In this document: positions 49,194 to 64,000 of the stretch, in pieces | Layout: each line of letters opens with the position of its first letter | Numbering within the stretch: the first letter of the stretch is position 1 | Source: Methylocapsa acidiphila B2 | GTDB taxonomy: Bacteria > Pseudomonadota > Alphaproteobacteria > Rhizobiales > Beijerinckiaceae | NCBI RefSeq assembly: GCF_000427445.1 | Contig: NZ_KE386496.1 | Coordinates: 2,336,506-2,400,505 of the forward strand | Direction of reading: 5' to 3' | DNA: 64,000 nucleotides | The notes under the pieces: model-generated | The model's database searches: none | What the model was told of the DNA's origin: nothing | The model's input: only the letters and a program-made list of their open reading frames with translations | Translations under genes and position numbers: made by a program

Positions 49194-52100
49194 ATGGCGG
49201 GATTGGCGAGCGGATACTTGTCCGAGGCGCAGGCTACTGAGCCGGCCGTCGGGTCTATCGTCCCGCATCAACTGGCGATCGCGCTCGAATTTTTTCGCGC
49301 CGGGCGAGATGACGAGGCGCAAGAGATCTACGCCGCCATTCTCGCCAATTCGCCCGACCAATTCGTCTGCCTGCACCATCTCGGCCTCATCGCCCATCGG
49401 CGGGGAGACCACGCGGTCGCCGAAAGGCTGATCGAGCGGGCGGTCGCGGTCAAGCCCGACTATGTCGAAGCTCATTCGAATCTCAACGCGATCTATCGGG
49501 CCATGGGCAAGACCGAAAGCGCTCTGGCCGCGGCGCGGCGCGCTGTCGAGCTCGATCCGAATTTCGCGCAGGCGCATTCCAACCTCGGCGCGGCGCTCGA
49601 GGACCAAGGCCAGCTCGAAGCCGCGCTCGCCGCCTATCGGCGCGCCGCCGCGCTCAATCCGAGCTTCGTCGAGGCCCAGTCGAACGCCGCGAATGTTTTG
49701 CGCAAGCTCGGGCGTCCCGATGAGGCGATGGAAACCTGCTCCAGCGTCATTGCGCAAAGGCCCGACGCGGCTGCGCCCTATTTCAGCCTCGGCAATATTC
49801 TCAAGGAGATGCGACGACCGAACCAGGCGATCGAGGCTTATCGGCGCGCAATCGCCCTACAGCCCGATTTCGCCCAGGTCTATGTCAATCTCGGCAATGT
49901 GCTGCAAAGCCAGGAGAATTTCGAGGAGGCGGTCGACGCCTATCGTGAAGCTCTCGCATTGCGCCCGACGCTCGCCGAAGCGCATGTCAATCTGGGCGCG
50001 GCTCTGGACGAGCTCGGCCGATTGGACGAGGCCATCCAATCGTTCCGGGCGGGGCTCGAGCTCGATCCGAAACTGATCGCGGTGCGGGCGTGGCTGCATC
50101 ACAAGCGCCGTCTGATCTGCGACTGGACCGGGATCGACGCCGAAGAGGCGGAGCTTCGCGCGTCCATGGAGCGCGATCCGACGCCGGTGCATCCCTTCGC
50201 CATTCTCGGCACGCGGGCGACCGCGGCGGAACAGCTGCGCAACAGCCGCAACTATGCGGCGAGCGTCGCGCGGGGGGCCAAACCTTTCGCGCCTTCGACG
50301 ACGGAGCCGGCGAGCGGCCGAAAGTTGAGGATAGGCTATCTCTCGGCGGATTTTTGCCGCCATGCGACGGCGCTTCTGGCGGTTGAATTGTTCGAGCACT
50401 GCGACTCGTCCCGTTTCGAGATCACGGCCTATTCTCATGGGCCGGACGATCGCAGCGAAATGAGCGCGCGGCTACGCGCCGCCTTCGATCATTTCGTCGA
50501 TCTTCGCGCGCTCTCGGACGACGAGGCCGCGGCGCGCATCCGTGCGGACAAGATCGACATTCTGATCGAGATGAAGGGTTACACCAAAGGCGCGCGCACG
50601 GGGATCTCCGCCCGCCGGCCGGCGCCGGTCCAGGCGAGCTTCCTCGGCTTCCCCGGGACGATGGGAGCGGATTTCATCGACTACGTCATCGCCGATCCGT
50701 TCGTCCTGCCGCTGGATCAGCAGGAGGCCTTCAGCGAGAAGATCGTTCATTTGCCCCATTGCTATCAGCCGAACGACGCGCGCCGGCTGATCGCGGACCT
50801 GACCCCGACGCGAGGGGAATGCGGTCTTCCAGAGGACGGATTCGTCTTCTGCTCCTTCAACAACAGCTACAAGATCACGCCCGAATTCTTCGACATCTGG
50901 ATGCGGCTCCTGACCAATGTCCCGGGCGGCGTCCTTTGGCTTCTCGACACGAACGATCTCGCCAAGCGCAATCTCGTCCGGGAAGCCGCCGCCCGCGGCG
51001 TCGATCCCGATCGCCTGGTCTTCGCTCCGAAACTCGCCTCGCCGGAACATCTCGCCCGCCATCGGCTGGCGGATCTCTTTCTCGACACATTGCCTTACAA
51101 TGCCCATACGACGGCGAGCGACGCGCTATGGGCGGGCCTGCCGGTCTTGACTTGCGTCGGACACACATTCGCCGGCCGGGTAGCGGGAAGCCTTCTGCAC
51201 GCCGTAGGCCTGCCGGAACTCGCCACAGCCTCTCCGGCGGCCTATGAATCGCTGGCGTTGCGGCTCGCCCGCGAGCCAGATTTGCTGCAGGGCGTCCGCC
51301 ACAGGCTTATCGGCAACCGGCTGAATTCACCCCTTTTCGACGCTGCGGCCTATACGCGCGATTTCGAGGCCGCGCTCGAAAATATGTGGAGAATTTTCGA
51401 GCAAAAGCGCGAGCCGCGAGCCTTCGCCATCGCGGCGGCGCCCGAAACGCCGGTCGCGACGGCCAAGATCCAAAGGCTTGCCTATCTTTCCTGCCCGCTT
51501 TGCGATCACGCCGACATTCCGGCGATTATCAACGCAGATTGCTCGAAACATCCGATCTACCATCCCGCGCTGCCGCCCGTGATGACATGGCGCGAATGCC
51601 AAAGCTGCGGTCATGTCTTCACCGACGGCTATTTCGACGACGGGGCCTGCGAGCTCATCTTTGCAAAAACGCAACCGAACCAGACGGTTGGATTCGACAT
51701 GGAGCGGCAGCGACTGGTTTCGGCGCGCGTCGTCGAGCGGATCGCGCGCCATGTGGCCCCCGGCGGGCATTGGCTCGACGTTGGCTTCGGCAGCGGCTCG
51801 CTCTTGTTCGCCGCGGAGGAATGGGGCTATGTCCCGGTCGGGCTCGACTTGCGCAAGGACAATGTTCAGGCGCTGATCGGACTCGGCTACGAGGCGCATA
51901 GCCTATCGATCGAGGAGCTCGAGCATGACGAGCGCTTCAGCGTCGTGAGCATGGCTGACGTGCTCGAACATATGCCTTTCCCAAAAGCCGGCTTAGCGGC
52001 GGCGCGCCGGCTGCTGCTCCCCCAGGGCGCCCTGTTCCTGTCCATGCCGAACATGGACAATATGGTCTGGCGCCTATTGCACGCGAATAACGTCAATCCT

Positions 52101-52247
52101 TATTGGGGCGAGATCGAGCACTATCACAATTTCACGCGCCAGCGGCTTTACCACCTTTTGGAGGAACATGGATTCACGCCGGCGGCCTATCATGTCAGCG
52201 AACGCTACCGCGTTTGCATGGAGGTCGTCGCCATCAAGCAAGGATGA
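49194..52247 (+). CDS. TPR - OGT-type glycosyltransferase (GT41) - zinc-ribbon methyltransferase fusion
   Basis: 1017 aa. Residues about 22-305 are TPR repeats (for example NFAQAHSNLGAALEDQGQLE). About 376-745 is the GT41/SPINDLY-like catalytic part (LRIGYLSADFCRHATALL, QASFLGFPGTMGADFIDYVI, YNAHTTASDALWAGLPVLT). Then comes a CPLC (about 767) and CQSCGH (about 801) ribbon, and a class I SAM methyltransferase (HWLDVGFGSGSLLF near 859, VVSMADVLEHMPFP). No signal peptide, so it is cytoplasmic. Likely glycosylates a protein or surface structure and methylates the sugar or product; the target is unknown. Confidence 0.88.
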   Translation: MAGLASGYLSEAQATEPAVGSIVPHQLAIALEFFRAGRDDEAQEIYAAILANSPDQFVCLHHLGLIAHRRGDHAVAERLIERAVAVKPDYVEAHSNLNAIYRAMGKTESALAAARRAVELDPNFAQAHSNLGAALEDQGQLEAALAAYRRAAALNPSFVEAQSNAANVLRKLGRPDEAMETCSSVIAQRPDAAAPYFSLGNILKEMRRPNQAIEAYRRAIALQPDFAQVYVNLGNVLQSQENFEEAVDAYREALALRPTLAEAHVNLGAALDELGRLDEAIQSFRAGLELDPKLIAVRAWLHHKRRLICDWTGIDAEEAELRASMERDPTPVHPFAILGTRATAAEQLRNSRNYAASVARGAKPFAPSTTEPASGRKLRIGYLSADFCRHATALLAVELFEHCDSSRFEITAYSHGPDDRSEMSARLRAAFDHFVDLRALSDDEAAARIRADKIDILIEMKGYTKGARTGISARRPAPVQASFLGFPGTMGADFIDYVIADPFVLPLDQQEAFSEKIVHLPHCYQPNDARRLIADLTPTRGECGLPEDGFVFCSFNNSYKITPEFFDIWMRLLTNVPGGVLWLLDTNDLAKRNLVREAAARGVDPDRLVFAPKLASPEHLARHRLADLFLDTLPYNAHTTASDALWAGLPVLTCVGHTFAGRVAGSLLHAVGLPELATASPAAYESLALRLAREPDLLQGVRHRLIGNRLNSPLFDAAAYTRDFEAALENMWRIFEQKREPRAFAIAAAPETPVATAKIQRLAYLSCPLCDHADIPAIINADCSKHPIYHPALPPVMTWRECQSCGHVFTDGYFDDGACELIFAKTQPNQTVGFDMERQRLVSARVVERIARHVAPGGHWLDVGFGSGSLLFAAEEWGYVPVGLDLRKDNVQALIGLGYEAHSLSIEELEHDERFSVVSMADVLEHMPFPKAGLAAARRLLLPQGALFLSMPNMDNMVWRLLHANNVNPYWGEIEHYHNFTRQRLYHLLEEHGFTPAAYHVSERYRVCMEVVAIKQG

Positions 52248-53214: not shown

Positions 53215-53395
53215 GGTCAATCGTCGGGCCCATCGCCTTTCGACCTGTTTCTATTCGCGCGGCTAGTCATTATTTCCGCCGCTCGCGCTACAAGGACGCA
53301 AATAGGCGCAATCGGCGCGCGACGGCGTGCGCCCATCGCACGCGAAAAGCGTGGCGATCCGGCGCGATTCGCTCTTTTTTCTGATAAGGCAGGGC

Positions 53396-54316
53396 ATGCA
53401 GCCGATCATCTCTATTTCGGGCCTCGGCAAGAGATACGCGTCCGGCTTCAAGGCCCTCACGAATATCGATCTGGACATCTACCCCGGTGAAATATTCGCC
53501 TTGCTCGGCCCAAACGGCGCCGGCAAGACGACAATGATCAACATCGTCTGCGGCATCGTCAATCCGACCGAGGGAACAGTCGTCGCTGACGGCCACGATA
53601 TTCGAAAGGATTATCGCGCCGCCCGATCCAAGATCGGTCTCGTCCCGCAGGAACTGGCCACGGATGCGTTCGAGACCGTATGGGCGACCGTGAGCTTCAG
53701 CCGCGGCCTCTTCGGCAAGCCCGCCGACCCGGATCATATTGCAAAAACCCTGAAAGCGCTTTCCCTATGGGACAAGAAGGACAGCAAAATCCTTACTCTG
53801 TCAGGCGGCATGAAGCGCCGCGTGATGATCGCCAAAGCGCTGTCGCATGAGCCGAAGATCTTGTTTCTCGACGAGCCGACCGCCGGAGTCGACGTCGAGC
53901 TTCGCCGCGGCATGTGGGAGATGGTTCGGTCTTTGCAAGCAACCGGCGTGACGGTCATCCTCACCACACATTATATCGACGAGGCCGAGGAGATGGCGGA
54001 CCGAATAGGCGTGATCAACAAAGGCGAACTCGTCTTGGTCGAAGACAAGACGGCGCTGATGAACAAATTCGGCAAGAAGCAACTGACGCTCAATTTGCGG
54101 ACGAGGCTAACCTCAATCCCCGCCAAGCTCGCCGATTTTCGGCTCGAGCTCTCGGCCGACGGGAGCGAGCTCGTCTACGCATTCGATCCTCATGACGATA
54201 AGGTCGGCGCGCTGATGAAGGGGCTGAACGAGCTCCATATTGACTTCACCGACATAAGGACAAGCCAGAGCTCGTTGGAGGAGATTTTCGTCAGCCTGGT
54301 CAGGGCCAGACCATGA
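53396..54316 (+). CDS. ABC-2 type exporter ATP-binding protein
   Basis: 306-aa ATPase of the YadG/CcmA-like exporter group. Walker [10 protein letters not shown], signature LSGGMKRR, Walker [14 protein letters not shown]-loop [15 protein letters not shown]. Start at 53396 ([14 protein letters not shown]). Ends with [11 protein letters not shown], usual for ABC-2 ATPases. Overlaps the permease gene by 4 nt. Substrate unknown. Confidence 0.93.
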
Positions 54317-55074
54317 ACTTTTACGCCATTCGCGCAATCTACATATTCGAGATGATGCGCACCTGGCGCACGTTGCTTCAAAGCATCGTCGCGCCCGTGA
54401 TGTCGACCTCGCTCTATTTCATCGTCTTCGGCGCTGCGATCGGATCGCGCATCGCGTCGATAGAAGGAATCTCCTATGGCGCCTTCATCGTGCCCGGGCT
54501 GACCATGTTGTCTCTGCTGACGCAAAGCATCTCGAACGGTTCCTTCGGCATTTTCTTCCCGAAGTTCTCCGGCACGATCTACGAGATTCTTTCCGCGCCC
54601 ATCTCCTATCGCGAAATCGTCATCGGTTACGTAGGCGCGGCGGCCAGCAAATCGATCATGCTCGCGGTCATTATTCTCGCAACCGCTCGATTGTTCGTAG
54701 CTTATGAGATCGCACACCCATTGTGGATGGTGATTTTTCTTTTTCTCACAGCCGTCAGCTTCAGCCTTTTCGGCTTCATCATCGGCATCTGGGCGGATAA
54801 TTTCGAAAAGCTTCAATTGACGCCGTCTCTCATCGTAACGCCGCTGACCTTTCTCGGCGGCAGCTTCTACTCGATCGGCATGCTGCCGCCATTCTGGCGT
54901 AACGTCACGATGGCGAATCCCATCGTCTATCTGGTCAGCGGATTTCGCTGGAGCTTTTTTGGGGCCTCCGACATCAATGTCGGCGTCAGCCTCGGCTTCA
55001 CCTTGGGCTTCCTGCTCCTATGTCTGACGACGGTGTGGTGGATCTTCAAAACCGGATACCGATTGAGAGCCTAA
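54313..55074 (+). CDS. ABC-2 type exporter permease
   Basis: 253-aa six-helix permease of the YadH type. It has [17 protein letters not shown], a [17 protein letters not shown] loop, and [20 protein letters not shown], the conserved ABC-2 segment. Paired with the preceding ATPase. An imperfect hairpin (about 55091-55117, CTGAC-GGGC / GCCC-GTCAG) downstream may end the transcript. Confidence 0.92.
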
Positions 55075-55428
55075 TCGGCGCGCAGAGATCCTGACGGGCC
55101 TAGACGCCCGCCGTCAGCCTGCCCCTCCCCAAGTTCGCCCCCTGTCGTGGCCGACGCAGCTGTTCCGCAGCGTTGACGATGCGCGGGTTCGGACAAGCCC
55201 GCAATGGCCGGCCCCGAGGGAAACTCCCGTCGCTCCCAATCATCGCCCCTGCCCCAGCATCGCCGGTGCGCTTCGACGCCGGTGGCTAATTTGCCACAGC
55301 CGGCGGAGATCGGATTCACGCGCCGATTTTTCGTTTGACGCAGCGGCAGCCATGTCCTTACCAATATAGCTATGTTCACTTATATATCGCTTTGCGCCCT
55401 TATGCGCAGGCTAGAAGGGCGCCAGGTC
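55075..55428. other. Intergenic region upstream of the two-partner secretion genes
   Basis: 354 bp. The last 70 bp turn AT-rich (AATATAGCTATG and TTATATATCG near 55362-55390) and probably hold the tpsA promoter. In-frame ATG codons at 55372 and 55405 are alternative starts for tpsA. Confidence 0.5.
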
Positions 55429-58400
55429 ATGCAATACCTGAATTCTCAGATAGATAGCTTACTGCGCCTGCCCCTGCCCGACGCGACGCCCTCCTTACCC
55501 ACAGCCTCGATCAATCTTCGCGGACTGCACGGCGTCCTTTTGACCACGACGGCTGTCGCCGCTCTGCTGGCGCTGCAGGATGCGGCGCTCGCTGGACCAA
55601 CTGGAGGAACCGTCGTCGAGGGCTCGGCCAATATCTCGCAGTCTGGAAGCACGACCAACATCAACCAGTCCAGCAGCAAGGCCATCATCAACTGGCAGGG
55701 CTTCTCCATCGGGTCCCAGGAGACAGTCAACTTCAACCAGCCGAGCAGTTCGTCGGTGACGCTCAACCGCGTCATCGGCAATGAGCAAAGCATCATCTCC
55801 GGCGCGCTCAACGCCAATGGTCAGGTCTTCATCATCAATTCGGCGGGCGTCCTCTTCACCAAGGATTCGCAGGTCAATGTCGGCGGACTCGTCGCCTCAA
55901 CGCTCGACATTTCCAACAAGAATTTCATGGCCGGAAACTACGTATTCTCTGGCTCCTCCTCGGCCTCCGTGGTCAATATGGGCACGATCCACGCAGCCGA
56001 CGGCGGCTATGTCGCGCTGCTCGGCCAAACGGTCTCCAACCAGGGCGTGATCACGGCCACGCTGGGGACCGTCGCCATGGCCTCGGGCAATAAGATCGCC
56101 CTCAATTTCAACGGAGATTCCCTTGTCGACGTGACCATCGACGAAGGGACGCTGAACGCGCTGGTGGAGAACAAGGGCGCGATCAAAGCCGACGGTGGGC
56201 GGGTGGTGTTGACCGCCAAGGCGGCCGACGCGGTGCTCTCGGCGCAGGTCAACAATAGCGGCGTCATCCAGGCGCAGACCATGGCGGCGCTCAAAGGCGG
56301 CTCCGGCGCATCGGCGACAGCGCATGTGGGATCGATCAAGCTTCTGGCTTCTGGCGGAACTGTGAAAGTCGCCGGCAAGCTCGACGCCTCGGCGCCGAAG
56401 GGCGGAAATGGCGGCAAGATCGAGACCAGCGGCAACCGGGTCACGATCGCCGACGACGCTGTCATCACCACCAAATCGGCGAGCGGCGACAACGGAACCT
56501 GGCTGATCGACCCCGACGGGTTCAACATCGGGGGACCTCAAGCCGACATCAGCGGGACTCTTCTCAGCAGTCTTCTTGGCTTCAACAACATCACGCTGCA
56601 ATCGACCGACGGGCATGGCGTCGACGGGAACATCAATGTCAACGCGCCCGTGACCTGGTCGGCGAACACGACCCTGACTCTGGACGCGACGAACAATATC
56701 AACATCAATGCGCCGATCACGGCGACGGGCCTCTCCGCCGGGCTCGTGCTGAACTATGGCGGCTACGCGACCACCGGGAGCGTCAAGGCGGGGACGGACT
56801 ATTACATCAACAATATAACGACGAACTCAGATGGAAGCGTGCAGGTCAGTCCAGCCTCGATCACGCTGAGCGGCGACAACGCTAGCCTCTCCATCAACGG
56901 CCAGGCCTACACGCTCATCCACACCATGGCCCAGCTCGAGGCGATCAGCACGCCGGTGCTCGACGCCAATGGGAACCAGGTTTACAGTGATTGGGATGGA
57001 ACGCCTGTCTACACCGCGGCGACAGGGTACTATGCCCTCGCCGAGAATTTGGACGCATCAGGCAAGACTTATTCCGGCTCCGTGATCAATACCTTGTCCG
57101 GCACGCTCGCCGGGCTCGGGCACAAGGTCAGCAACCTGACCATTACTGACACAAAAGGTTACGGCAACGATGGCTTGATCGGCCAAGTTGGCTCAATTGC
57201 CACTGACGGCACCGTCTCGAGCACCGGCACAGTCCGCGACATCGGTCTGGTGAACGCGACAATCACCGACGATACCGGAGTTGGCAGAGGAGGCGGCGCC
57301 GACGGCGCCTTAGCCGGAGTCAATAACCAGGGAAGCTCAATCAGCAACGTCTACGCGATCAACGCGATAATGACGGGGGTCTTCCAGGTCGGCGGGCTGG
57401 TCGGCCGCAATCAGGGCGCTATCGACAACGCACATACGGTCACGACCATATCGGCCCTCGACGCCGGCTCGGACTATGGCGGGTTGGTTGGGTTCAATCT
57501 CGGGACCATAGACAACTCCAGCGCCAAAGCGAAGATAACGAGCGCAGGCGTGCTGAGCGATGGCGGCAGCAGCCTTACCTTCAGCACCAACATCGGCGGG
57601 CTGGTCGGGTACAACGCAGGCTCCATCAACAACTCCCACGCCTTTGTGGACATAACAGCCACGAACGGCTGGGAGGTCGGCGGACTGGTCGGGTACAACG
57701 CCTCGGGCTTCGACAGTACAAGCCGCCCTGGCAAGATCACAGGATCGAGCGCGGTTGGAACCGTGAATGCGACATGGACCTATACCCAGGTCAATGGCCA
57801 AAACTATGGCGGGCTGGTTGGAGAGAATTCCGGCGGCTCCATCATTGACTCCGCCTCCAATGTCAATCTGACCGTGACTGCGACGAATGGCTCCTTTGTA
57901 CAGAATATAGGCGGCCTGGTTGGGTCAAACTCTTCAAATATTTTCGATGGGACAGGCGGCGCGATCACCAATTCCACGTCCTATGGGAATGTGAGCACCA
58001 GCGGGCTTGCCTTCGAAGTCGGAGGTCTGGTCGGACTGAACTTCGACGGCACCTTCAATGGCGATCACGCCTTCGGGAATGTGAATGGCACCGTCGATGT
58101 CGGCGGGTTGGTCGGGTCAAACGAAATTGGCTCAATCAGCGATAGCACTGCCAGCGGGACGGTGACGGGCAAGGCGAATGTAAACGGGTTGGTCGGTTCT
58201 AATGGCGGAACAGTCGCCAACAGCACCTATCAAAACGCGGCTGCGGCGGCCGCGGCGGCCGCGGCTCAACAGCTCGCGCAGGAGGCGGCGACCGCAACGG
58301 CGGCGGCGAATGTGATCTCGACGACCAATGCGGAGATGACGGCGGCGACGCCGCCGAGCGGATCGCAATCAACCGCAGGCAAGGAGAAAGTCGCCGCCAT

Positions 58401-58713
58401 CGCCGGTCCTAAGATCGACGACAACCTGACGATCAAAGAGCCGCCGCCATCCTCAGGCGCAGCCGGCGGGGGGCGAGCAAACCGCGGCGGCGATTCGGAG
58501 GCCGCCGCAGGCGAGGAGGAGAACGCCGCGAGCGAGGCGCCCCGCGCGCGTCATCATGTGTCCTCCAGGTCAACGACGCGGAAAGCTGTCGTGAAGGTCA
58601 AGGGCGCCGGCTTCGGCGCCACCATCCGCCATATCGAGATCGACGGCGAGCGCTACAATTTGGAGGACAGTTCCTCCAAGAACGGCGGCTCCGCCCCCGA
58701 GAAAGCCCAGTAG
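55429..58713 (+). CDS. Two-partner secretion exoprotein TpsA (filamentous haemagglutinin-like) with GLUG repeats
   Basis: 1094 aa from the ATG at 55429, which gives an extended signal peptide ending near LAGPTGG. The TPS (haemagglutination activity) domain follows: AIINWQGFSIGSQETVNFNQ, then NGQVFIINSAGVLFTKDSQV and VGGLVASTLDIS. The second half carries eight GGLVG units and one NGLVG, classical GLUG repeats. The C-terminus is Ala-rich, then charged, with no autotransporter barrel. Secreted across the outer membrane by the TpsB encoded 31 nt downstream. Adhesin or ligand-capture function is inferred from the family. Confidence 0.9.
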   Translation: MQYLNSQIDSLLRLPLPDATPSLPTASINLRGLHGVLLTTTAVAALLALQDAALAGPTGGTVVEGSANISQSGSTTNINQSSSKAIINWQGFSIGSQETVNFNQPSSSSVTLNRVIGNEQSIISGALNANGQVFIINSAGVLFTKDSQVNVGGLVASTLDISNKNFMAGNYVFSGSSSASVVNMGTIHAADGGYVALLGQTVSNQGVITATLGTVAMASGNKIALNFNGDSLVDVTIDEGTLNALVENKGAIKADGGRVVLTAKAADAVLSAQVNNSGVIQAQTMAALKGGSGASATAHVGSIKLLASGGTVKVAGKLDASAPKGGNGGKIETSGNRVTIADDAVITTKSASGDNGTWLIDPDGFNIGGPQADISGTLLSSLLGFNNITLQSTDGHGVDGNINVNAPVTWSANTTLTLDATNNININAPITATGLSAGLVLNYGGYATTGSVKAGTDYYINNITTNSDGSVQVSPASITLSGDNASLSINGQAYTLIHTMAQLEAISTPVLDANGNQVYSDWDGTPVYTAATGYYALAENLDASGKTYSGSVINTLSGTLAGLGHKVSNLTITDTKGYGNDGLIGQVGSIATDGTVSSTGTVRDIGLVNATITDDTGVGRGGGADGALAGVNNQGSSISNVYAINAIMTGVFQVGGLVGRNQGAIDNAHTVTTISALDAGSDYGGLVGFNLGTIDNSSAKAKITSAGVLSDGGSSLTFSTNIGGLVGYNAGSINNSHAFVDITATNGWEVGGLVGYNASGFDSTSRPGKITGSSAVGTVNATWTYTQVNGQNYGGLVGENSGGSIIDSASNVNLTVTATNGSFVQNIGGLVGSNSSNIFDGTGGAITNSTSYGNVSTSGLAFEVGGLVGLNFDGTFNGDHAFGNVNGTVDVGGLVGSNEIGSISDSTASGTVTGKANVNGLVGSNGGTVANSTYQNAAAAAAAAAAQQLAQEAATATAAANVISTTNAEMTAATPPSGSQSTAGKEKVAAIAGPKIDDNLTIKEPPPSSGAAGGGRANRGGDSEAAAGEEENAASEAPRARHHVSSRSTTRKAVVKVKGAGFGATIRHIEIDGERYNLEDSSSKNGGSAPEKAQ

Positions 58714-58744
58714 CGAAACGCTCTGGCCTGAAAGGTCTATAGCA

Positions 58745-60469
58745 ATGAAATACGGCACGTTCATCGCCTGCTGCGGCGCGTTTCAAGCAGCTTTGTTCAC
58801 AGCGCCACAAGCCATCGCGCAGGTCGCGACGCCGGTTCTGCCGTATAATCTGGGCGACGCGGTCCGCGACGCGGACGCCGCGCGGCGCGCGCCTCTGCCG
58901 CCGCCGCAGGCCCAGCCGGTCTTGCCGCAGGTCTCCGAGCCGCGCCTCGTCATCAAGGACCATGAGACGCTTTTCGTACGCAGCATCGAGGTCGAAGGCC
59001 CCAATCTTATCGCTTCGGCCGAGGTGCAAGAGGTCCTCGCGCCCTTCGAAAACCGCAAGCTCACGCTTTCCGAGATCTATGACGCGGCGGACAAGGTCAC
59101 GACCCTCTACCGCACGCGCGGCTATCTCGTCGCCAAGGCCTATGTGCCGGCGCAGGACGCGCGCGGAGGCGTCCTGCGGATCAAGCTGATCCCCGGCCAA
59201 TATGGCGAAATCGCGCTCAAGAACCAATCGCTCGTCCGCGACGATTTTCTCCAAGCCCTGCTCGGTCACGCGCTCGGCGGCTCTCCCTATGTTCAAAAGG
59301 ATCCGCTCGAGCGCGCCATGCTGCTGACGTCCGATTTGCCGGGAGCGGCCATGCCGCGCGTGGCGGTCGGTCCGGGACGGGAGGCCGAGACCTCCGACTT
59401 CGTGTTGAACGTGCCGGAAGGCCGCCGCTTCGACGGCTATCTCGTCGGCGACAATTTCGGCTCGCCCTATACGGGGCGGGATCGCGTCAGCGCCTCGCTC
59501 TCCTTGAATTCGCCGCTGGGCTACGGGGACCGTCTCTACGCCTTCGGCATCGTGTCGCAGGAGACCAATCTCGTGAACGGGCGGGTCGCCTACGCCTTTC
59601 CGATCGGCTATGACGGGATGCGCGGCGAGATCGGCGCCTTCCGGACGACCTATGTGCTCGGCGGCGTTTACGAGAGCCTTGACGGGACCGGCGTCGCGGA
59701 CGGGTTGACTGCGACCTTGACCTATCCGATCGCGCGCCAGCGGGACCACAGCATTTATGTCGCCGCCAACTACACGCACAAGGAGTTGAACGACAAGGTG
59801 CTCGGCGCCTCGGTCGCAAATCGCACGATCGATCTCGCGACGCTGAGCGTCTCAGGCGATACGTTCGGATCGGTCTTCGGCCTGCCTGTGACGACGAGCA
59901 CGACCTTCTCCTATACGGCCGGCAATGTCGACTTCCCCGATTACAAGCAGATGGTCTCCAATATCGTCGGCGCCGATACATACGGCATTTACGAGCGGGT
60001 GAACCTCTCCTTCAACGCAACCCTCGCGTTGAATGACAAGCTCTCTCTCTCGACCTTATTGCGCGCGCAGAAGTCCCTGTCCGGGAATCTCGACTCGAGC
60101 GAGCAGATGAGCCTCACCGGCTATTGGGGCGTTCGGTCCTATGACGAAGGCCTGAGCGGCGACAGCGGCTATCTCGTCACGCCCGAACTGAAATATGCGC
60201 TGCCGGACTTCTATCTCTACCGCCATTCGCTCGGGCTCTTCACCGACGTCGGCGCCGCCTGGCTCGCGGACGGCTCCTACACGACGACGCAAAGAACCTA
60301 CACTCAGCTGAATGACATAGGCCTCGGCTATTATGCGACCTTTGAATATTCGCAGCAAAGGTTCTTCCTGATTAAGGCTCAGGTCGCCCACACCTATGGT
60401 TCGGACACGGGCGCGTCGACCTATAACCGAGGCACAAAAGGATTGTTCCAGGTCGGGCTCACCTTTTAG
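58745..60469 (+). CDS. Two-partner secretion translocator TpsB (FhaC/ShlB family)
   Basis: 574 aa. Signal peptide (about 1-25), a short Pro-rich region, POTRA domain(s) at about 73-195 (FVRSIEVEGPNLIASAEVQE, YRTRGYLVAKAYVPAQD), then a 16-strand barrel (GYLVGDNFGSPYTGRDRVSA) ending in FQVGLTF with a terminal Phe. AAAGG lies upstream of the ATG. Forms a pair with the preceding TpsA. Confidence 0.93.
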   Translation: MKYGTFIACCGAFQAALFTAPQAIAQVATPVLPYNLGDAVRDADAARRAPLPPPQAQPVLPQVSEPRLVIKDHETLFVRSIEVEGPNLIASAEVQEVLAPFENRKLTLSEIYDAADKVTTLYRTRGYLVAKAYVPAQDARGGVLRIKLIPGQYGEIALKNQSLVRDDFLQALLGHALGGSPYVQKDPLERAMLLTSDLPGAAMPRVAVGPGREAETSDFVLNVPEGRRFDGYLVGDNFGSPYTGRDRVSASLSLNSPLGYGDRLYAFGIVSQETNLVNGRVAYAFPIGYDGMRGEIGAFRTTYVLGGVYESLDGTGVADGLTATLTYPIARQRDHSIYVAANYTHKELNDKVLGASVANRTIDLATLSVSGDTFGSVFGLPVTTSTTFSYTAGNVDFPDYKQMVSNIVGADTYGIYERVNLSFNATLALNDKLSLSTLLRAQKSLSGNLDSSEQMSLTGYWGVRSYDEGLSGDSGYLVTPELKYALPDFYLYRHSLGLFTDVGAAWLADGSYTTTQRTYTQLNDIGLGYYATFEYSQQRFFLIKAQVAHTYGSDTGASTYNRGTKGLFQVGLTF

Positions 60470-60514
60470 GTCCGATCCCCAAATGGGACGCGGCGAGATT
60501 TGGAGAAATTCATA

Positions 60515-60943
60515 ATGCGCATGGATTGGCTGTCGAACGCGATCGACTTCGGCGTCATCGGACTGCTTGGCGCCCTCAGCGTCATTGTCGTCGGCGTCGT
60601 CATAGAAAGGGTTGTCTTTTACCGGTCCGTCGACGTGCGCGGCTACAAGAGCGCGAAGGCGCTCGAGCTCGAGTTGAGCCAGAGGCTCTTCTTGATCGGC
60701 TCCGTCGCGGCGAACGCGCCTTATATCGGCCTGCTCGGAACCGTTCTCGGCATCATGCTGACTTTCTACAATATGGGCCTCGACGCGACGGCTGACGCCG
60801 CCAAGATCATGACCGGCCTCGCCCTTGCCCTCAAGGCGACGGCGGTCGGCCTGGTCGTGGCTCTCGTGTCGGTGACGAGCTACAATGCGCTCTTGCGCAA
60901 GGCGAAAGTTATGCTGCTGCAATGGGAAATCGGCCATGGATGA
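60515..60943 (+). CDS. exbB: ExbB-type proton-channel protein (short form)
   Basis: 142 aa, MotA/TolQ/ExbB family. Three hydrophobic helices (about 11-31, 65-90 and 107-128), with [17 protein letters not shown] and [17 protein letters not shown], the conserved family core. It is much shorter than E. coli ExbB (244 aa), like the compact ExbB forms of some other bacteria. GGAG precedes the ATG at 60515. Overlaps exbD by 8 nt. Confidence 0.9.
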
Positions 60944-61319
60944 GCGGCCCTTCGAGACGATCAACGTCATTCCCTTCGTCGACATCATGCTCGTCCTTCT
61001 CGCCATGGTGTTGACCACGGCCAATTTCATCGCAACAGGGCGCATACCCGTCGCCTTGCCCCAGGCCTCGCACGCGGATGTCGAGAAGCAAAAGAACACG
61101 ATCATCGAGCTCGCCGCCGACGGCCAGATCTATTTCGAGGGGCAGCCCGCGTCGAAGGAGGAGCTCGAGGCGCGGCTCGCGAGCCTCCCGGCCGATGCGT
61201 CCTTCTTGATCCGGGCGGATCGCGGGATCGCCTTCCAGCGCTTCATCGACGTCGCCGATATTCTGAAGGGGCTGAAGTTTACAAAGGTCGCCGTTCAAGT
61301 CGAGGGCGCAGCCAAATAG
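60936..61319 (+). CDS. exbD: ExbD-type energy transducer component
   Basis: 127 aa, one N-terminal helix containing the essential Asp (D16 in [14 protein letters not shown]), then a periplasmic domain with [16 protein letters not shown] and [20 protein letters not shown]. Works with ExbB to energise TonB with the proton motive force. Confidence 0.93.
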
Positions 61320-61360
61320 CCCTTCGGATTTCGTTCATGCGCCACGGGCGCGGAGGGAAA

Positions 61361-62086
61361 ATGGGCAAGATAAAATTCACGATCTATCATGGCGTGGCAG
61401 CGTCCTTCTTGCTGCATTCCGCGCTCAGCGTGCCTATCGCCGTCTACGGCCTCGCGCGCGAGCAGGACGAGCCGACGCTCGTCGTCGAGCTGCGCGGCGC
61501 CGTCGCCGAGGTTCAAGTCGAGCAAAAGCTCCAACAGCAGACGAGCACGCAGGCCAGGCCAGTGGCGGACGAGCAGGCGAAGACCACGGAAGATACGCCT
61601 GAAAAGACGGCGGCTCCCGATCAGCCCGAGGAGCTCAAGCCCGACGACGACGATGCGGCGACGCCGCCGCCCGCGCCGCAAACGCCGCAAACGCCGCCCG
61701 TCGAGGCGAAGACCGGAAATCCGGGGGCCAGCAATACGCCGGGGGCGGACGAGGCGCAAAAGGCGCAAATCATCAGGAAGGCTCGTGACGAGGAAATGAA
61801 TCTCCTCAAGGCCTATGTGAAAGCGCTGCGGAAAAAGGTCCAAACCAATCTCGTCTATCCGGACGAAGGCCGCGCGCGCGGCCTGCAAGGAGAGGCGACG
61901 GTCTCCTTCACTGTTCTCGAAAGCGGACAGATCCGCGAAGGGACATTGAAGATCGTCGCGAGCAGCGGCCAGGCGCAACTGGATTCGAGCGCGCTGAAGA
62001 CCATTCGCTCAAGCGCGCCCTTTGACGCGCCGCCCCGGCAAATGACCGTGGTCATTGATGTCGGCTACGGCCGCAAGCATCGTTAA
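61361..62086 (+). CDS. tonB: TonB energy transducer
   Basis: 241 aa. N-terminal anchor (about 5-24, with HGVAASFLLHSALSVPIAVY including the signal-anchor His), acidic/Pro-rich spacer (50-125), and a C-terminal TonB domain (LVYPDEGRARGLQGEATVSF, DSSALKTIRSSAPFDAPP). GGAGG precedes the ATG at 61361. It completes exbB-exbD-tonB. No TonB-dependent receptor is in the window. Confidence 0.92.
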   Translation: MGKIKFTIYHGVAASFLLHSALSVPIAVYGLAREQDEPTLVVELRGAVAEVQVEQKLQQQTSTQARPVADEQAKTTEDTPEKTAAPDQPEELKPDDDDAATPPPAPQTPQTPPVEAKTGNPGASNTPGADEAQKAQIIRKARDEEMNLLKAYVKALRKKVQTNLVYPDEGRARGLQGEATVSFTVLESGQIREGTLKIVASSGQAQLDSSALKTIRSSAPFDAPPRQMTVVIDVGYGRKHR

Positions 62087-62219
62087 GGCGCCCGGCGGCC
62101 CGCCGCCGGAGCAGGTGCGCGCCTGAAACATCGGCTAAAAGGCCGAAATATGTCCATATAATATCAATATATTGAAAATAATCGGCGCATTTTTAGGCTT
62201 TTTTGCGCCGTTATGGCCA

Positions 62220-62234
62220 TGTTATAGATTTACA
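62220..62234. promoter_or_regulatory. Imperfect dyad resembling the putative Zur site
   Basis: TGTTATAGATTTACA upstream of the ModA-like gene shares TGTTATA and TTACA with the dyad at 23648. It may be a metal-responsive operator or an AT-rich coincidence. Confidence 0.25.
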
Positions 62235-62258
62235 TGTCGCACGGGACTCGTGGCCGTA

Positions 62259-62274
62259 TCGGCCTTTCGGCCGA
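62259..62274 (+). other. Short leader hairpin before the ModA-like gene
   Basis: TCGGCC pairs with GGCCGA around TTTC and is followed by AATTTTC. It could be a weak terminator for tonB or an attenuator of the next gene. Confidence 0.3.
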
Positions 62275-62353
62275 ATTTTCTGCCAATAACAATAAATTAC
62301 ATGGCCACGCAGGAAGGGCGGCGTAGACCTGCAACGAGAGGGGACAACAATAA

Positions 62354-63256
62354 ATGTCGAAATATACGCTAATAAAGCTCGCGATCGGCGCTTGGGCGCT
62401 TGCGCAGGCGTGCGCGCCCGCGCAAGCGGCTTGCACGACAACGTCGAACATTACCGTCGCGGTGTCGCCGACCGCCGCGAACACATTCTCGGATATCGTC
62501 GCCGACTTCCAGGCTGCCTATTCAGCGTCCTATACGTCAACTTGTTATACGGTATCTTTAGTTAGCGACTCCGATGCTTCAATCGAGAACACTATCGTCG
62601 CCGCGGGCGGAAACAGCGCCTATGACATCATGATCTCGAAGTCGCCAGTCGTTCCGGTGGAGCTTGCCCTAAAATACTCGAGTTATGTGGCCGCATCGCC
62701 TTTCGCCGTCGCTAAGGACCCGCTTGTCCTTTACTCGGTCACGACGGACATCTCTGGCGGCTTGCCATCTGCGCTGAGCGCGTTTTCGGTTCCAGATCCC
62801 GCGACGCTGGACCCTTACGGCCTAGCCGCAGTGCAAGCCATGAAAGGCGCATGGCTTTACGCCGTGGGCAAGAAACTCGCGACCAAGACGCCGGACGCCA
62901 TCAGCTCTTGGACCCAAGTTGAATATGGCGGATTGACCTATGGCTTTACCGGCAAGTCGCAGATTTGCACGAATGTGACGGGCCTCTCGGAAGACTATGA
63001 GACAGGCAGCTTTCACCACGAGTATGTTCAGGGCGTCGATTATTTCAATGGCATTGCGTGGACGGGCGTGAAGCTCAGCCGTCTCTCTGGGGGCGTCGCC
63101 GTGCGGACAGCCGGCCAGGAGGCGGCGCTCAACGCCTTCATCAGCTTTCTGAGCGCGACAAGCGTGCCGGTGACTAATCCGCAGAATACGGGCGCGTCGC
63201 TACAGCTGAACGCCGGGTTGACAGACTTGGCGCAGCACTGCCTCAAAAATCCGTAG
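62354..63256 (+). CDS. ModA-like periplasmic binding protein, paralogue 1
   Basis: 300 aa. Signal peptide ends near AQAA (about residue 26). The mature part follows the ModA/type II binding-protein pattern: NITVAVSPTAANTFSDIVAD, YDIMISKSPVVPVELA, PDPATLDPYGLAAVQAMKG. Cysteines (about 27, 63, 206) may form disulfides. The usual molybdate permease genes modBC do not follow; instead a second paralogue does. Ligand could be molybdate, tungstate or another oxyanion. Confidence 0.78.
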   Translation: MSKYTLIKLAIGAWALAQACAPAQAACTTTSNITVAVSPTAANTFSDIVADFQAAYSASYTSTCYTVSLVSDSDASIENTIVAAGGNSAYDIMISKSPVVPVELALKYSSYVAASPFAVAKDPLVLYSVTTDISGGLPSALSAFSVPDPATLDPYGLAAVQAMKGAWLYAVGKKLATKTPDAISSWTQVEYGGLTYGFTGKSQICTNVTGLSEDYETGSFHHEYVQGVDYFNGIAWTGVKLSRLSGGVAVRTAGQEAALNAFISFLSATSVPVTNPQNTGASLQLNAGLTDLAQHCLKNP

Positions 63257-63363
63257 ATGACAACGCCGCCGGATTGGCGAGCGAACCGCCCCGTCAAATT
63301 CGGACACACATGATGCGACGTCAATGAGTCATCGCGACTCCAGAAGACATTAGGGAAACAGCC

Positions 63364-64000
63364 ATGTCGACAAAAAAGAACATAGTTTTTGCGGCGTCTG
63401 TTCTTGCTGCCGCAGCCGTCACGAGCGGCCCGGCGCAGGCGACGTCAATCAATATCGCCGTCGCGGCGAATTTCGCAGGGGCGATCGCGGCCTTAGCCGC
63501 TCAGTTCCTACAGACCGCCCCGTATTCGACGAAGGGGTATAGCGTATCGTACACCTCGGACTCATCAGCTGTTCTGCTGGCAGCTATACAAAACCACACC
63601 GCGAGCTATGACCTCTTCCTGTCAGCGGACGCGACCCGACCGAATACGCTTACGGCGTCGCCAAATCTGCAATCCACCGGGGCAGTTGGAACATGCACGA
63701 CGACATGTGGGATAGGCGCCCCATTCCTCTATGCCGTTGGCGAGTTGGAGCTGTGGTCTCCGACGTTGACAACCGTCGCCAGCGGCCTTCCCACGACTGG
63801 CGTTCCTCCGTTTAGCCCAGCCATCGTCATCGCCGATCCGTCCAAAGCTCCATATGGTTTTGCGGCGCAGCAGGTTCTCGCGCACTCGCCCTGGTCGCTT
63901 CCGCGGACCGGAGATCCGACGGTGAGTTGCAAGGACCCGAATTCGGGGGCGACCGCCACTTGCTTGTCTCAGGCGACGAGCGAAGGCCTTTATGAGCAAT
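63364..64000 (+). CDS. ModA-like periplasmic binding protein, paralogue 2 (cut by the right edge)
   Basis: First 212 codons only. ATG at 63364 with AGGGAAACAGCC upstream. Signal peptide MSTKKNIVFAASVLAAAAV ends near AQA, then INIAVAANFAGAIAALAAQF, SYDLFLSADATRPNTL and IADPSKAPYGFAAQQVL, a clearer ModA match than its neighbour. It lies 107 nt after paralogue 1 in the same direction. Confidence 0.8.
   Translation, partial: MSTKKNIVFAASVLAAAAVTSGPAQATSINIAVAANFAGAIAALAAQFLQTAPYSTKGYSVSYTSDSSAVLLAAIQNHTASYDLFLSADATRPNTLTASPNLQSTGAVGTCTTTCGIGAPFLYAVGELELWSPTLTTVASGLPTTGVPPFSPAIVIADPSKAPYGFAAQQVLAHSPWSLPRTGDPTVSCKDPNSGATATCLSQATSEGLYEQ

Follow-up and report, generated by a model that had tools for sequence, protein, structure and literature searches.

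The question raised by the locus described here is what is served by a TonB energy system and two ModA-like solute-binding proteins (SBPs) that are encoded beside a two-partner secretion (TPS) pair. The locus lies at the right end of a 64,000-nucleotide stretch of the genome of Methylocapsa acidiphila B2 (contig NZ_KE386496.1, positions 2,336,506 to 2,400,505), the whole of which is called the window below. Our answer, held tentatively and with a little less than even confidence, is that from its sequence the locus may be a dedicated module for scavenging a nutrient at the cell surface, most likely molybdenum (molybdate or tungstate), and a variant of the PUMA3/Pdt and Hxc-DING arrangement of Pseudomonas. 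Its features are the following (ORF, open reading frame):

55335..55389, + strand: tpsA promoter region, with a -35-like TTGAC at about 55335 and degenerate ModE-box-like dyad copies at 55350 and 55370
55372-58713 (ORF; start probably 55429), + strand: TpsA, the TPS exoprotein (PF05860, E 1.1e-35; TIGR01901), with GLUG repeats
58745-60469, + strand: TpsB, the outer-membrane translocator (POTRA_2 and FhaC/ShlB barrel)
60515-60943, + strand: ExbB of group 2 (TIGR02805 exbB2, 146 bits, cut-off 135)
60936-61319, + strand: ExbD (PF02472; TIGR02804 at 104 bits, below the cut-off of 123)
61337-62086, + strand: TonB (PF03544 TonB_C, 50.6 bits, cut-off 24.6)
62354-63256, + strand: SBP1, ModA-like, with signal peptide (PF13531, 30.8 bits, cut-off 25)
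63364 to about 64287, past the window end (L007:9370-10293), + strand: SBP2, ModA-like, with signal peptide (PF13531, 68 bits)

The domain matches bear out the sequence-only reading of this DNA, which had seen a TpsA-TpsB pair followed by ExbB-ExbD-TonB and then by two ModA-like proteins; all of these genes lie head to tail on the same strand. The N-terminal TPS domain of TpsA adjoins a TpsB with POTRA and FhaC/ShlB domains, the make-up of two-partner secretion (type Vb), while MotA_ExbB, ExbD and TonB_C domains in adjoining genes constitute a TonB energy system; the succession of tpsB and exbB2-exbD2 is that of PUMA3/Pdt. The TonB is one of six TonB_C matches in the 4.1-Mb genome (G000). SBP1 had no NCBIfam match, TIGR01256 (modA) included, and SBP2 scored 43.4 bits with TIGR01256, below the cut-off of 62.5, which some SBP2 relatives reach. 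The intergenic gaps from tpsA to SBP2 are, in order, 31, 45, -8 (an 8-bp overlap of exbB and exbD), 17, 267 and 107 bp, and because of the last two SBP1 and SBP2 may form a transcript separate from tpsA-tonB. The right flank encodes a ScfR-type regulator, an isocitrate lyase and, about 19 kb on, AmoC/PmoC (L008); this gene for a methane/ammonia monooxygenase subunit C, together with a nitrogenase-type gene elsewhere in the genome (L194), suggests that the host is probably a diazotrophic methanotroph.

Judged by its conservation, the cluster of tps, TonB and SBP genes is a real conserved system, and the view of the sequence-only reading that the parts belong together holds across the genomes of the family and the related stretches that were compared. 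In all, 199 family genomes were scanned for the SBPs, ExbB2, TpsB and a TpsA motif; a limited number of candidates was scored per genome, and absence means no match at that sensitivity. SBP matches of at least 147 bits were found in 14 genomes (next score 101 bits, from ordinary ModA relatives), TpsB-clade matches of at least 766 bits in 15 (next 290 bits, a truncated gene in G136) and ExbB2 matches of at least 133 bits in 16 (next a partial match of 78 bits, then 65). The sets are nested, the 14 genomes with SBPs all lying within the 15 with TpsB, and these within the 16 with ExbB2 (the extra one being G079); the hypergeometric probability for the co-occurrence of SBP and TpsB is 1.4e-20, uncorrected for the relatedness of the genomes. 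Presence is uneven within genera: among ten members drawn from the window genus, SBP, TpsB and ExbB2 were found together in three, and none of the three in seven at these scores.

Gene order was compared in 29 distinct stretches, which represent fewer genomes (several stretches each come from G087, G179, G193, G114, G205, G023 and G000, and G008 and G010 are near relatives). The complete order tpsA-tpsB-exbB-exbD-tonB is present in 15 of them, so the arrangement is not due to chance. Since the stretches had been chosen for their TpsB, ExbB2 or SBP matches, SBP linkage was counted instead on the SBP matches of at least 147 bits, and all 26 of these lie in tps clusters. Where SBPs are present (19 of the 29 stretches), they adjoin tpsA or are one named gene off in 17, and stand at the tonB end in the window and in L114; they stay with tpsA even where exbBD-tonB is elsewhere, as in G193, G114, G023 and the extra copies in G179 and G205 (L125-L130, with tonB in L128). 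Among 60 genomes, TpsB orthologues with 58-75% identity were found in five others, and exbB-exbD-tonB comes next in all five. Named genomes were also scanned and contributed 11 loci, nine of them on contigs already among the stretches and two additional (L045 and L046); the relatives carrying the locus include Methylocapsa aurea, Methylocella silvestris, Beijerinckia mobilis, Methylosinus and a Bradyrhizobium metagenome-assembled genome (MAG). Ten control stretches with TpsB matches outside the clade contained no SBP and no type II secretion system (T2SS) genes, and ExbB/ExbD with a PpiC gene in two.

Two further observations concern the extent of the link. In L040:1731-13331 and L041:6255-17883, distant TpsB matches lie near ExbB (inside a long ORF), ExbD, a weak TonB match and PpiC; the link between TPS and TonB may be older, or may have arisen more than once. 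An association of ExbB2 with TPS outside the family was also considered and abandoned: strong ExbB2 matches were found in 8 of 398 genomes of the phylum, the window's included, and four of the seven others, when checked, gave no TpsA or TpsB blastp match to the window set.

The molybdenum part of our reading starts from the SBPs. The best matches of the SBP profile were ModA of P. aeruginosa (7t4z group, E 5.7e-27) and then that of Azotobacter vinelandii (1atg, 2.1e-23). In the phylogenetic tree, the 29 tps-linked SBPs form one group (100/99), apart from 15 ModA-like proteins of the P. aeruginosa type and 12 canonical ModA proteins, and SBP1-type proteins form a subgroup of nine (100/96) within it; 12 of the 28 canonical ModA loci were used, L083 was left out, and the branches between the tps-linked and canonical groups were flagged as long. 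In P. aeruginosa ModA, molybdate is bound by Asn33, Thr60, Tyr141 and Ile168, with Ala139 and Asn167 also in contact, as described in PMC9171197. If Ser is allowed for Thr, the four ligands are retained in 19 of the 20 SBP2-type proteins (the exception being L127:9361-10299), and the SBP2 of the window has N, S, Y and I at these positions. SBP1-type proteins keep the set in none of nine cases and Asn33 in none, and have instead Asp139 in nine, Asp167 in eight and Asp60 in four. The types were assigned by the best BLAST match to the window pair, and L083 aligned badly at the pocket.

The composition of the tps-linked SBPs is also peculiar. Counted on the residues after position 25 and compared with 16 ModA-like ORFs of the family (L083 among them), they contain 11.0% charged residues vs 18.8%, and 32.8% Ser, Thr, Asn and Tyr vs 16.3%; all 29 have at least two Cys, while the control mean is 0.44. 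Few charged residues, the presence of Cys and abundant Ser, Thr, Asn and Tyr are typical of extracellular proteins, and by this measure the tps-linked SBPs appear to belong outside the cell and not to a periplasmic ABC importer. The family and the ligand residues of SBP2 are those of the ModABC importer, which differs in that ModB and ModC were not recognised beside the window locus (the ModB matches of the genome lie elsewhere), and from whose ModA the tps-linked SBPs are set apart by their separate clade and extracellular-type composition.

The window pair of SBPs falls with those of other genera (L120, L123, L124) and apart from the congeners' pairs (L027-L029), while the window TpsB is closest to the congeners' TpsB; the pair therefore looks, from its phylogeny, as if replaced from outside. 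It lies downstream of tonB, whereas the pair of the congeners is divergent from tpsA, so that the replacement would have occurred at the other end of the operon with the linkage retained. In L120, L123 and L124, outer-membrane proteins with an alginate-export-type barrel and an OMP_b-brl domain adjoin the SBP or TonB end.

Regulation provides a second line of evidence. Two patterns, which we take to be the consensus sequences of the PHO box and of the ModE box, were tried on 52 upstream regions. The PHO box was not enriched upstream of SBP and tpsA genes (mean best mismatch 5.42 vs 5.31 in shuffled sequences), whereas in the same test the ModE pattern was (6.21 vs 6.88), and only the latter was pursued. 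The dyad YTRTAT-N8-ATAYAR has the same geometry as the ModE consensus of the literature, ATCGNTATATA-N6-TATATANCGAT (as given in PMC545781). With at most one mismatch and a gap of 8, it is found ahead of the gene at 9 of 28 canonical modA loci, compared with 0-3 at gaps of 3-7 and 9-14; these loci are 7 of the 12 in the window genus, both of those in genus g10 and none of the 14 elsewhere. A weight matrix trained on these modA-upstream sites and then applied to tpsA promoters scored 21.9 at those of G008, of G010 and of the second tpsA of the window genome, and 16.2 at that of G005, with none of 500 shuffles as high in each case. In an alignment of five tpsA promoters of the genus, the core of the dyad is conserved downstream of an invariant TTGAC, a position that would suit an operator.

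In 247.5 kb of sequence from the genus, six sites scored at least 16, five of them at tpsA promoters or in the DNA between tpsA and SBP genes and one beside a nitrogenase gene. Another five were found in 527 kb from other genera, namely one of 21.8 just upstream of tpsB in the Bradyrhizobium MAG (L046), one upstream of a GT41 gene (L114) and three inside ORFs (169 bp before tpsA in L119, 261 bp before tpsA in L128, and within tpsA in L126); both sets of stretches were centred on clusters and are not random DNA. Searched over four whole genomes with at most one mismatch, the pattern occurred 5, 8, 9 and 4 times, compared with 1, 1, 1 and 3 times for the reversed pattern, and many of the sites are at genes without clear relevance. 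Among the other 18 tpsA promoters, at most 3 of 100 shuffles scored as high in five (L128, L052, L119, L120, L117); the genera whose tpsA promoters mostly score like shuffles are also without the dyad before modA (the 14 loci mentioned above). ModE-like matches, all below the curated cut-off, were found in 25 of 26 genomes, including that of the window, and L045 has a ModE-like gene (HTH_1 plus TOBE) upstream.

Three of the dyad sites have neighbourhoods worth recording. The second tpsA of the window genome (L038:4932-10036; G000:C2 about 3235031-3240135) encodes 1624 aa with 87% identity to the window's TpsA over 417 aa; it has a perfect ModE-box-like dyad at its promoter and is followed by a 77-aa stub that matches only the first 47 residues of TpsB, and PF04185 phosphoesterase and multicopper oxidase genes are near it. 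In L194:1-7943, the nitrogenase-type gene is accompanied on the opposite strand by genes for a PF01497 (BtuF-type) binding protein and for ModC-like and ModB-like proteins, no ModA being recognised beside them; the dyad site (16.7, position 1187) comes after the nitrogenase gene and before the next ORF, at 5 kb from the modBC-like genes. Finally, L240:1-2730 (G014) carries divergent genes for a TonB-receptor-like (Plug) protein and a PF01497 binding protein with an exact YTRTAT-N8-ATAYAR dyad between them, a pair that is a candidate for TonB-dependent molybdenum uptake.

The sequence-only reading had spoken of a candidate new uptake system; the link between TPS and ExbBD genes is in itself already known from PUMA3/Pdt of P. 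aeruginosa, where TpsA-TpsB-ExbB2-ExbD2 occur with a T2SS and PpiC, and which has homologues in Rhodopseudomonas palustris and others (PMC2729926). The two arrangements share TpsA, TpsB and ExbB/ExbD encoded together, in part the T2SS and PpiC isomerase nearby, and several tpsA per tpsB; the present one differs in having a separate TonB gene after exbD, ModA-like proteins, and a regulatory hint that concerns molybdate and not phosphate. VreA-VreI-VreR were not recognised among the ORFs of the window flanks, not every one of which was scanned; an ECF sigma gene lies beside L127, and L052 has FecR and FecA-like genes next to it. P. fluorescens SBW25 secretes a DING phosphate-binding protein mainly by the Hxc T2SS; the gene of this protein lies between hxc and one that encodes 4083 residues including a haemagglutination domain (PMC2225411). 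There, as in our reading, a solute-binding protein is exported and acts outside the cell, its gene being placed between those of a T2SS and one for a TpsA-like protein; the DING protein, however, is PstS-like and binds phosphate, whereas the present SBPs are ModA-like and often paired.

These likenesses suggest a different explanation, namely that the locus is the alphaproteobacterial counterpart of the phosphate-starvation systems PUMA3/Pdt and Hxc-DING, scavenging phosphate or anions in general, with SBPs that bind phosphate or another anion. The gene content is similar both to the P. aeruginosa set (T2SS, TpsA, TpsB, ExbB2D2, PpiC; PMC2729926) and to that of P. fluorescens (T2SS, phosphate-binding exoprotein, TpsA-like gene; PMC2225411), T2SS and PpiC genes occur in the present clusters too, and PdtAB and psp respond to phosphate limitation, though hxcR does not. 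It was nevertheless the ModE pattern and not the PHO box that was enriched upstream, and the SBPs are of the ModA type; in the account of PMC9171197, P. aeruginosa ModA had no apparent interaction with sulfate or phosphate. We consider a phosphate system unlikely.

A use of ModA outside the cell, proposed here from sequence, has been described in P. aeruginosa, where ModA is secreted by the type VI secretion system and the outer-membrane protein IcmP mediates molybdenum transport (PMC9769707); that ModA is an ordinary one, and the present SBPs are a separate ModA-derived clade in a TPS-TonB locus. The parallel with HxuCBA of Haemophilus influenzae, drawn in the sequence-only reading, is reduced to a loose analogy. 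In both cases a TPS pair is genetically tied to TonB-dependent uptake, but the receptor HxuC is encoded within the three-gene operon, for which PMC5422565 describes no ExbBD-TonB or SBP of its own, and HxuA has a disulfide-bearing C-terminal anchor (PMC5422565); in the present locus no gene for a receptor lies next to the pair, and Cys is absent from the last 200 residues of the window TpsA, as it is in 22 of 26 TpsA rows. The individual elements of the locus thus have precedents, and what may be new is their combination in one TPS locus: we found no description in the open-access literature searched of a ModA-type pair together with a TonB of its own and a ModE-like dyad.

What, then, does the TonB serve? 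The TpsA proteins, of 1002 to 2536 aa, share an end motif, [FY]GAxIRSIE[IV]DGQ[RH][FY][DN]L (in the window, GATIRHIEIDGERYNL), after a basic linker rich in Pro, Ala and Arg. A profile of the motif, built from these same TpsA ends, matched with E of at most 1.3e-9 only in the 15 TpsB-clade genomes and in G136 (truncated TpsB) among the 199, with only 31 candidates scored in most genomes; the next matches were 1.3e-5 in G114 and 1.1e-4 in G197. The TpsA alignment (A3) omits three rows: L053 and two incomplete ones, of which one is broken and one lies at an edge. The motif may serve TpsB, TonB or neither.

Another explanation is that secretion itself is energised: TonB-ExbB-ExbD would drive TpsB or the periplasmic C-terminus of TpsA, for secretion, release or retraction, and the SBPs would be cargo or surface partners, with no uptake. 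That a single short C-terminal motif is common to TpsA proteins of such different length is in keeping with this, as is the lack of a recognised receptor gene in the operon (55372-64287) and, by eye, among the window ORFs of at least 330 aa. In addition, L128, L052 and L170 (the latter two from one MAG) keep tonB beside tpsB although neither exbB nor exbD was recognised between the two genes, which points to a TPS partner. On the other hand, exbBD-tonB is apart from tpsAB in G193 and G114, and in G193 its position beside a protein with a TonB-receptor plug points away from a TPS partner; the TpsA motif could simply serve TpsB; and type V secretion is believed to run without energy from outside (PMC5422565). 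Nor was a TonB box recognised by eye in TpsB, whose conserved mature N-terminal segment PYNIGDAVRxAExARR was considered as such and set aside as unlike a TonB box, being maybe a plug helix. We regard energised secretion as doubtful, and still less probable is a molybdenum-responsive surface capture organelle, an energised TPS and uptake system in one, in which a TonB motor dedicated to the TPS pair would pull the TpsA tail or TpsB to bring in or release molybdate-loaded ModA-type proteins. As type V secretion is thought to be energy-independent, a dedicated TonB motor needs explaining either way.

Two side observations concern the same genes. At L166:8989-13289 (G000:C2 about 413988-418288) there is a third tpsA, broken into several ORFs, the last piece of which ends near the conserved motif. 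Where exbBD-tonB is absent after tpsB (L125, L126, L167, L169), a conserved 220-aa protein is encoded there instead (e.g. L169:12281-12943, - strand); the single copy that was scanned matched nothing in Pfam.

Among neighbouring genes, those for a T2SS (GspD, E, F or G) are present in 8 of the 29 stretches (L031, where it is an edge fragment; L045, L046, L114, L115, L125, L126 and L127), with a prepilin peptidase gene and gspD after tonB on the opposite strand in L045, and a PpiC gene follows tonB in L031/L048 and L114. A gene for a TPR plus GT41 glycosyltransferase is near tpsA or the SBP genes in eight stretches (L114, L115, L122, L126-L130), and it is possible that the enzyme glycosylates TpsA or the SBPs. 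Such genes recall the HMW adhesins, which have a GT41 glycosyltransferase, and with the GLUG repeats of TpsA and the altered pocket of SBP1 they would agree with a role in adhesion or biofilm formation, TpsA being an adhesin, the SBPs domesticated ModA relatives serving as matrix proteins, and the TonB module being kept for another receptor. A purely structural protein would not be expected to keep the oxyanion ligands, as SBP2 does in 19 of 20 cases, and the ModE-box-like dyad and the joint inheritance of SBP, TpsB and ExbB2 also speak against this alternative, to which we give little probability.

Two groups of genes to the left of the window locus were considered as parts of the system and dropped. 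The ABC-2 exporter-type pair at 53327-55074 has a permease without match in the stretches of the relatives. The gene at 49194-52247 encodes a TPR plus GT41 glycosyltransferase of 1017 aa, fused to a C-terminal methyltransferase domain; its identity to the GT41 genes of other clusters is only 27-29%, and those genes share 59-67% identity with the L115 copy.

Returning to the scavenging of molybdenum, the observed gene identities, linkage, co-inheritance, SBP2 pocket residues, composition and genus dyad can be put together as follows. Under low molybdate, ModE would release the tpsA promoter, as the dyad suggests, and TpsB would place TpsA, a long beta-helical protein, on the surface. The SBP2-type proteins, with their oxyanion pocket intact, would be exported past the outer membrane, probably by a T2SS, and would bind molybdate there, held or concentrated by TpsA; SBP1, with its acidic pocket, may have a different ligand or be a non-binding partner. 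ExbB-ExbD-TonB would energise either a receptor encoded elsewhere, which accepts the captured ligand, or the TpsA/TpsB pair.

Several results weigh against this scheme. The window's SBP1 has T, D, Y and A at positions 33, 60, 141 and 168, so the ligands are not kept, and its pocket is acidic (T60D, A139D and N167D in P. aeruginosa ModA numbering). The tpsA promoter of the window itself has degenerate dyads scoring 13.5, and 7 of 500 shuffles were as high; a spacing of 6 outscores that of 8 both there (17.7) and in G005 (20.4), which means that simple AT repeats contribute to the signal. At least 9 of 100 shuffles scored as high in 13 of the other 18 tpsA promoters, and no dyad with a gap of 8 was found before SBP genes. 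SBPs are missing from 10 of the 29 stretches; of these, L046 and L047 end at a contig edge and L030, L038, L116 and L118 come from genomes with SBPs elsewhere; none was found in G087, G079 and G136. Canonical ModA is present in all 26 genomes checked, so the tps-linked SBPs are not needed for basic uptake, and the idea that one of them is the sole ModA of a genome is ruled out. Composition and Cys content are no proof that the SBPs are secreted, the T2SS of the window genome is about 1.2 Mb from the locus, and T2SS secretins are common across the family (63 of 199 genomes). Finally, the sequence-only reading had pointed to the right flank for a TonB receptor and a permease, and neither was recognised in 25 kb of it, most ORFs being judged by eye and not by Pfam. 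Its proposal of molybdenum or oxyanion capture stands in part: SBP1 and the window dyad do not support it, but the kinship of the SBPs with ModA, the ligands of SBP2 and the dyad at tpsA promoters of the genus make the link to molybdenum better founded than at first reading.

In the acidic soils and peat that such methanotrophs inhabit, a shortage of molybdenum can hold back nitrogen fixation. If our reading is true, the locus would represent a new route to a trace metal of nitrogenase, with relatives of ModA working outside the cell under a molybdate regulator. It would also give a testable purpose to the puzzling ExbBD genes beside TPS loci, which were described in Pseudomonas in 2009 (PMC2729926). 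More generally, the locus touches the question of whether TonB can have partners besides TonB-dependent receptors, and the claim made for it could be stronger should TonB turn out to drive TpsA or TpsB.

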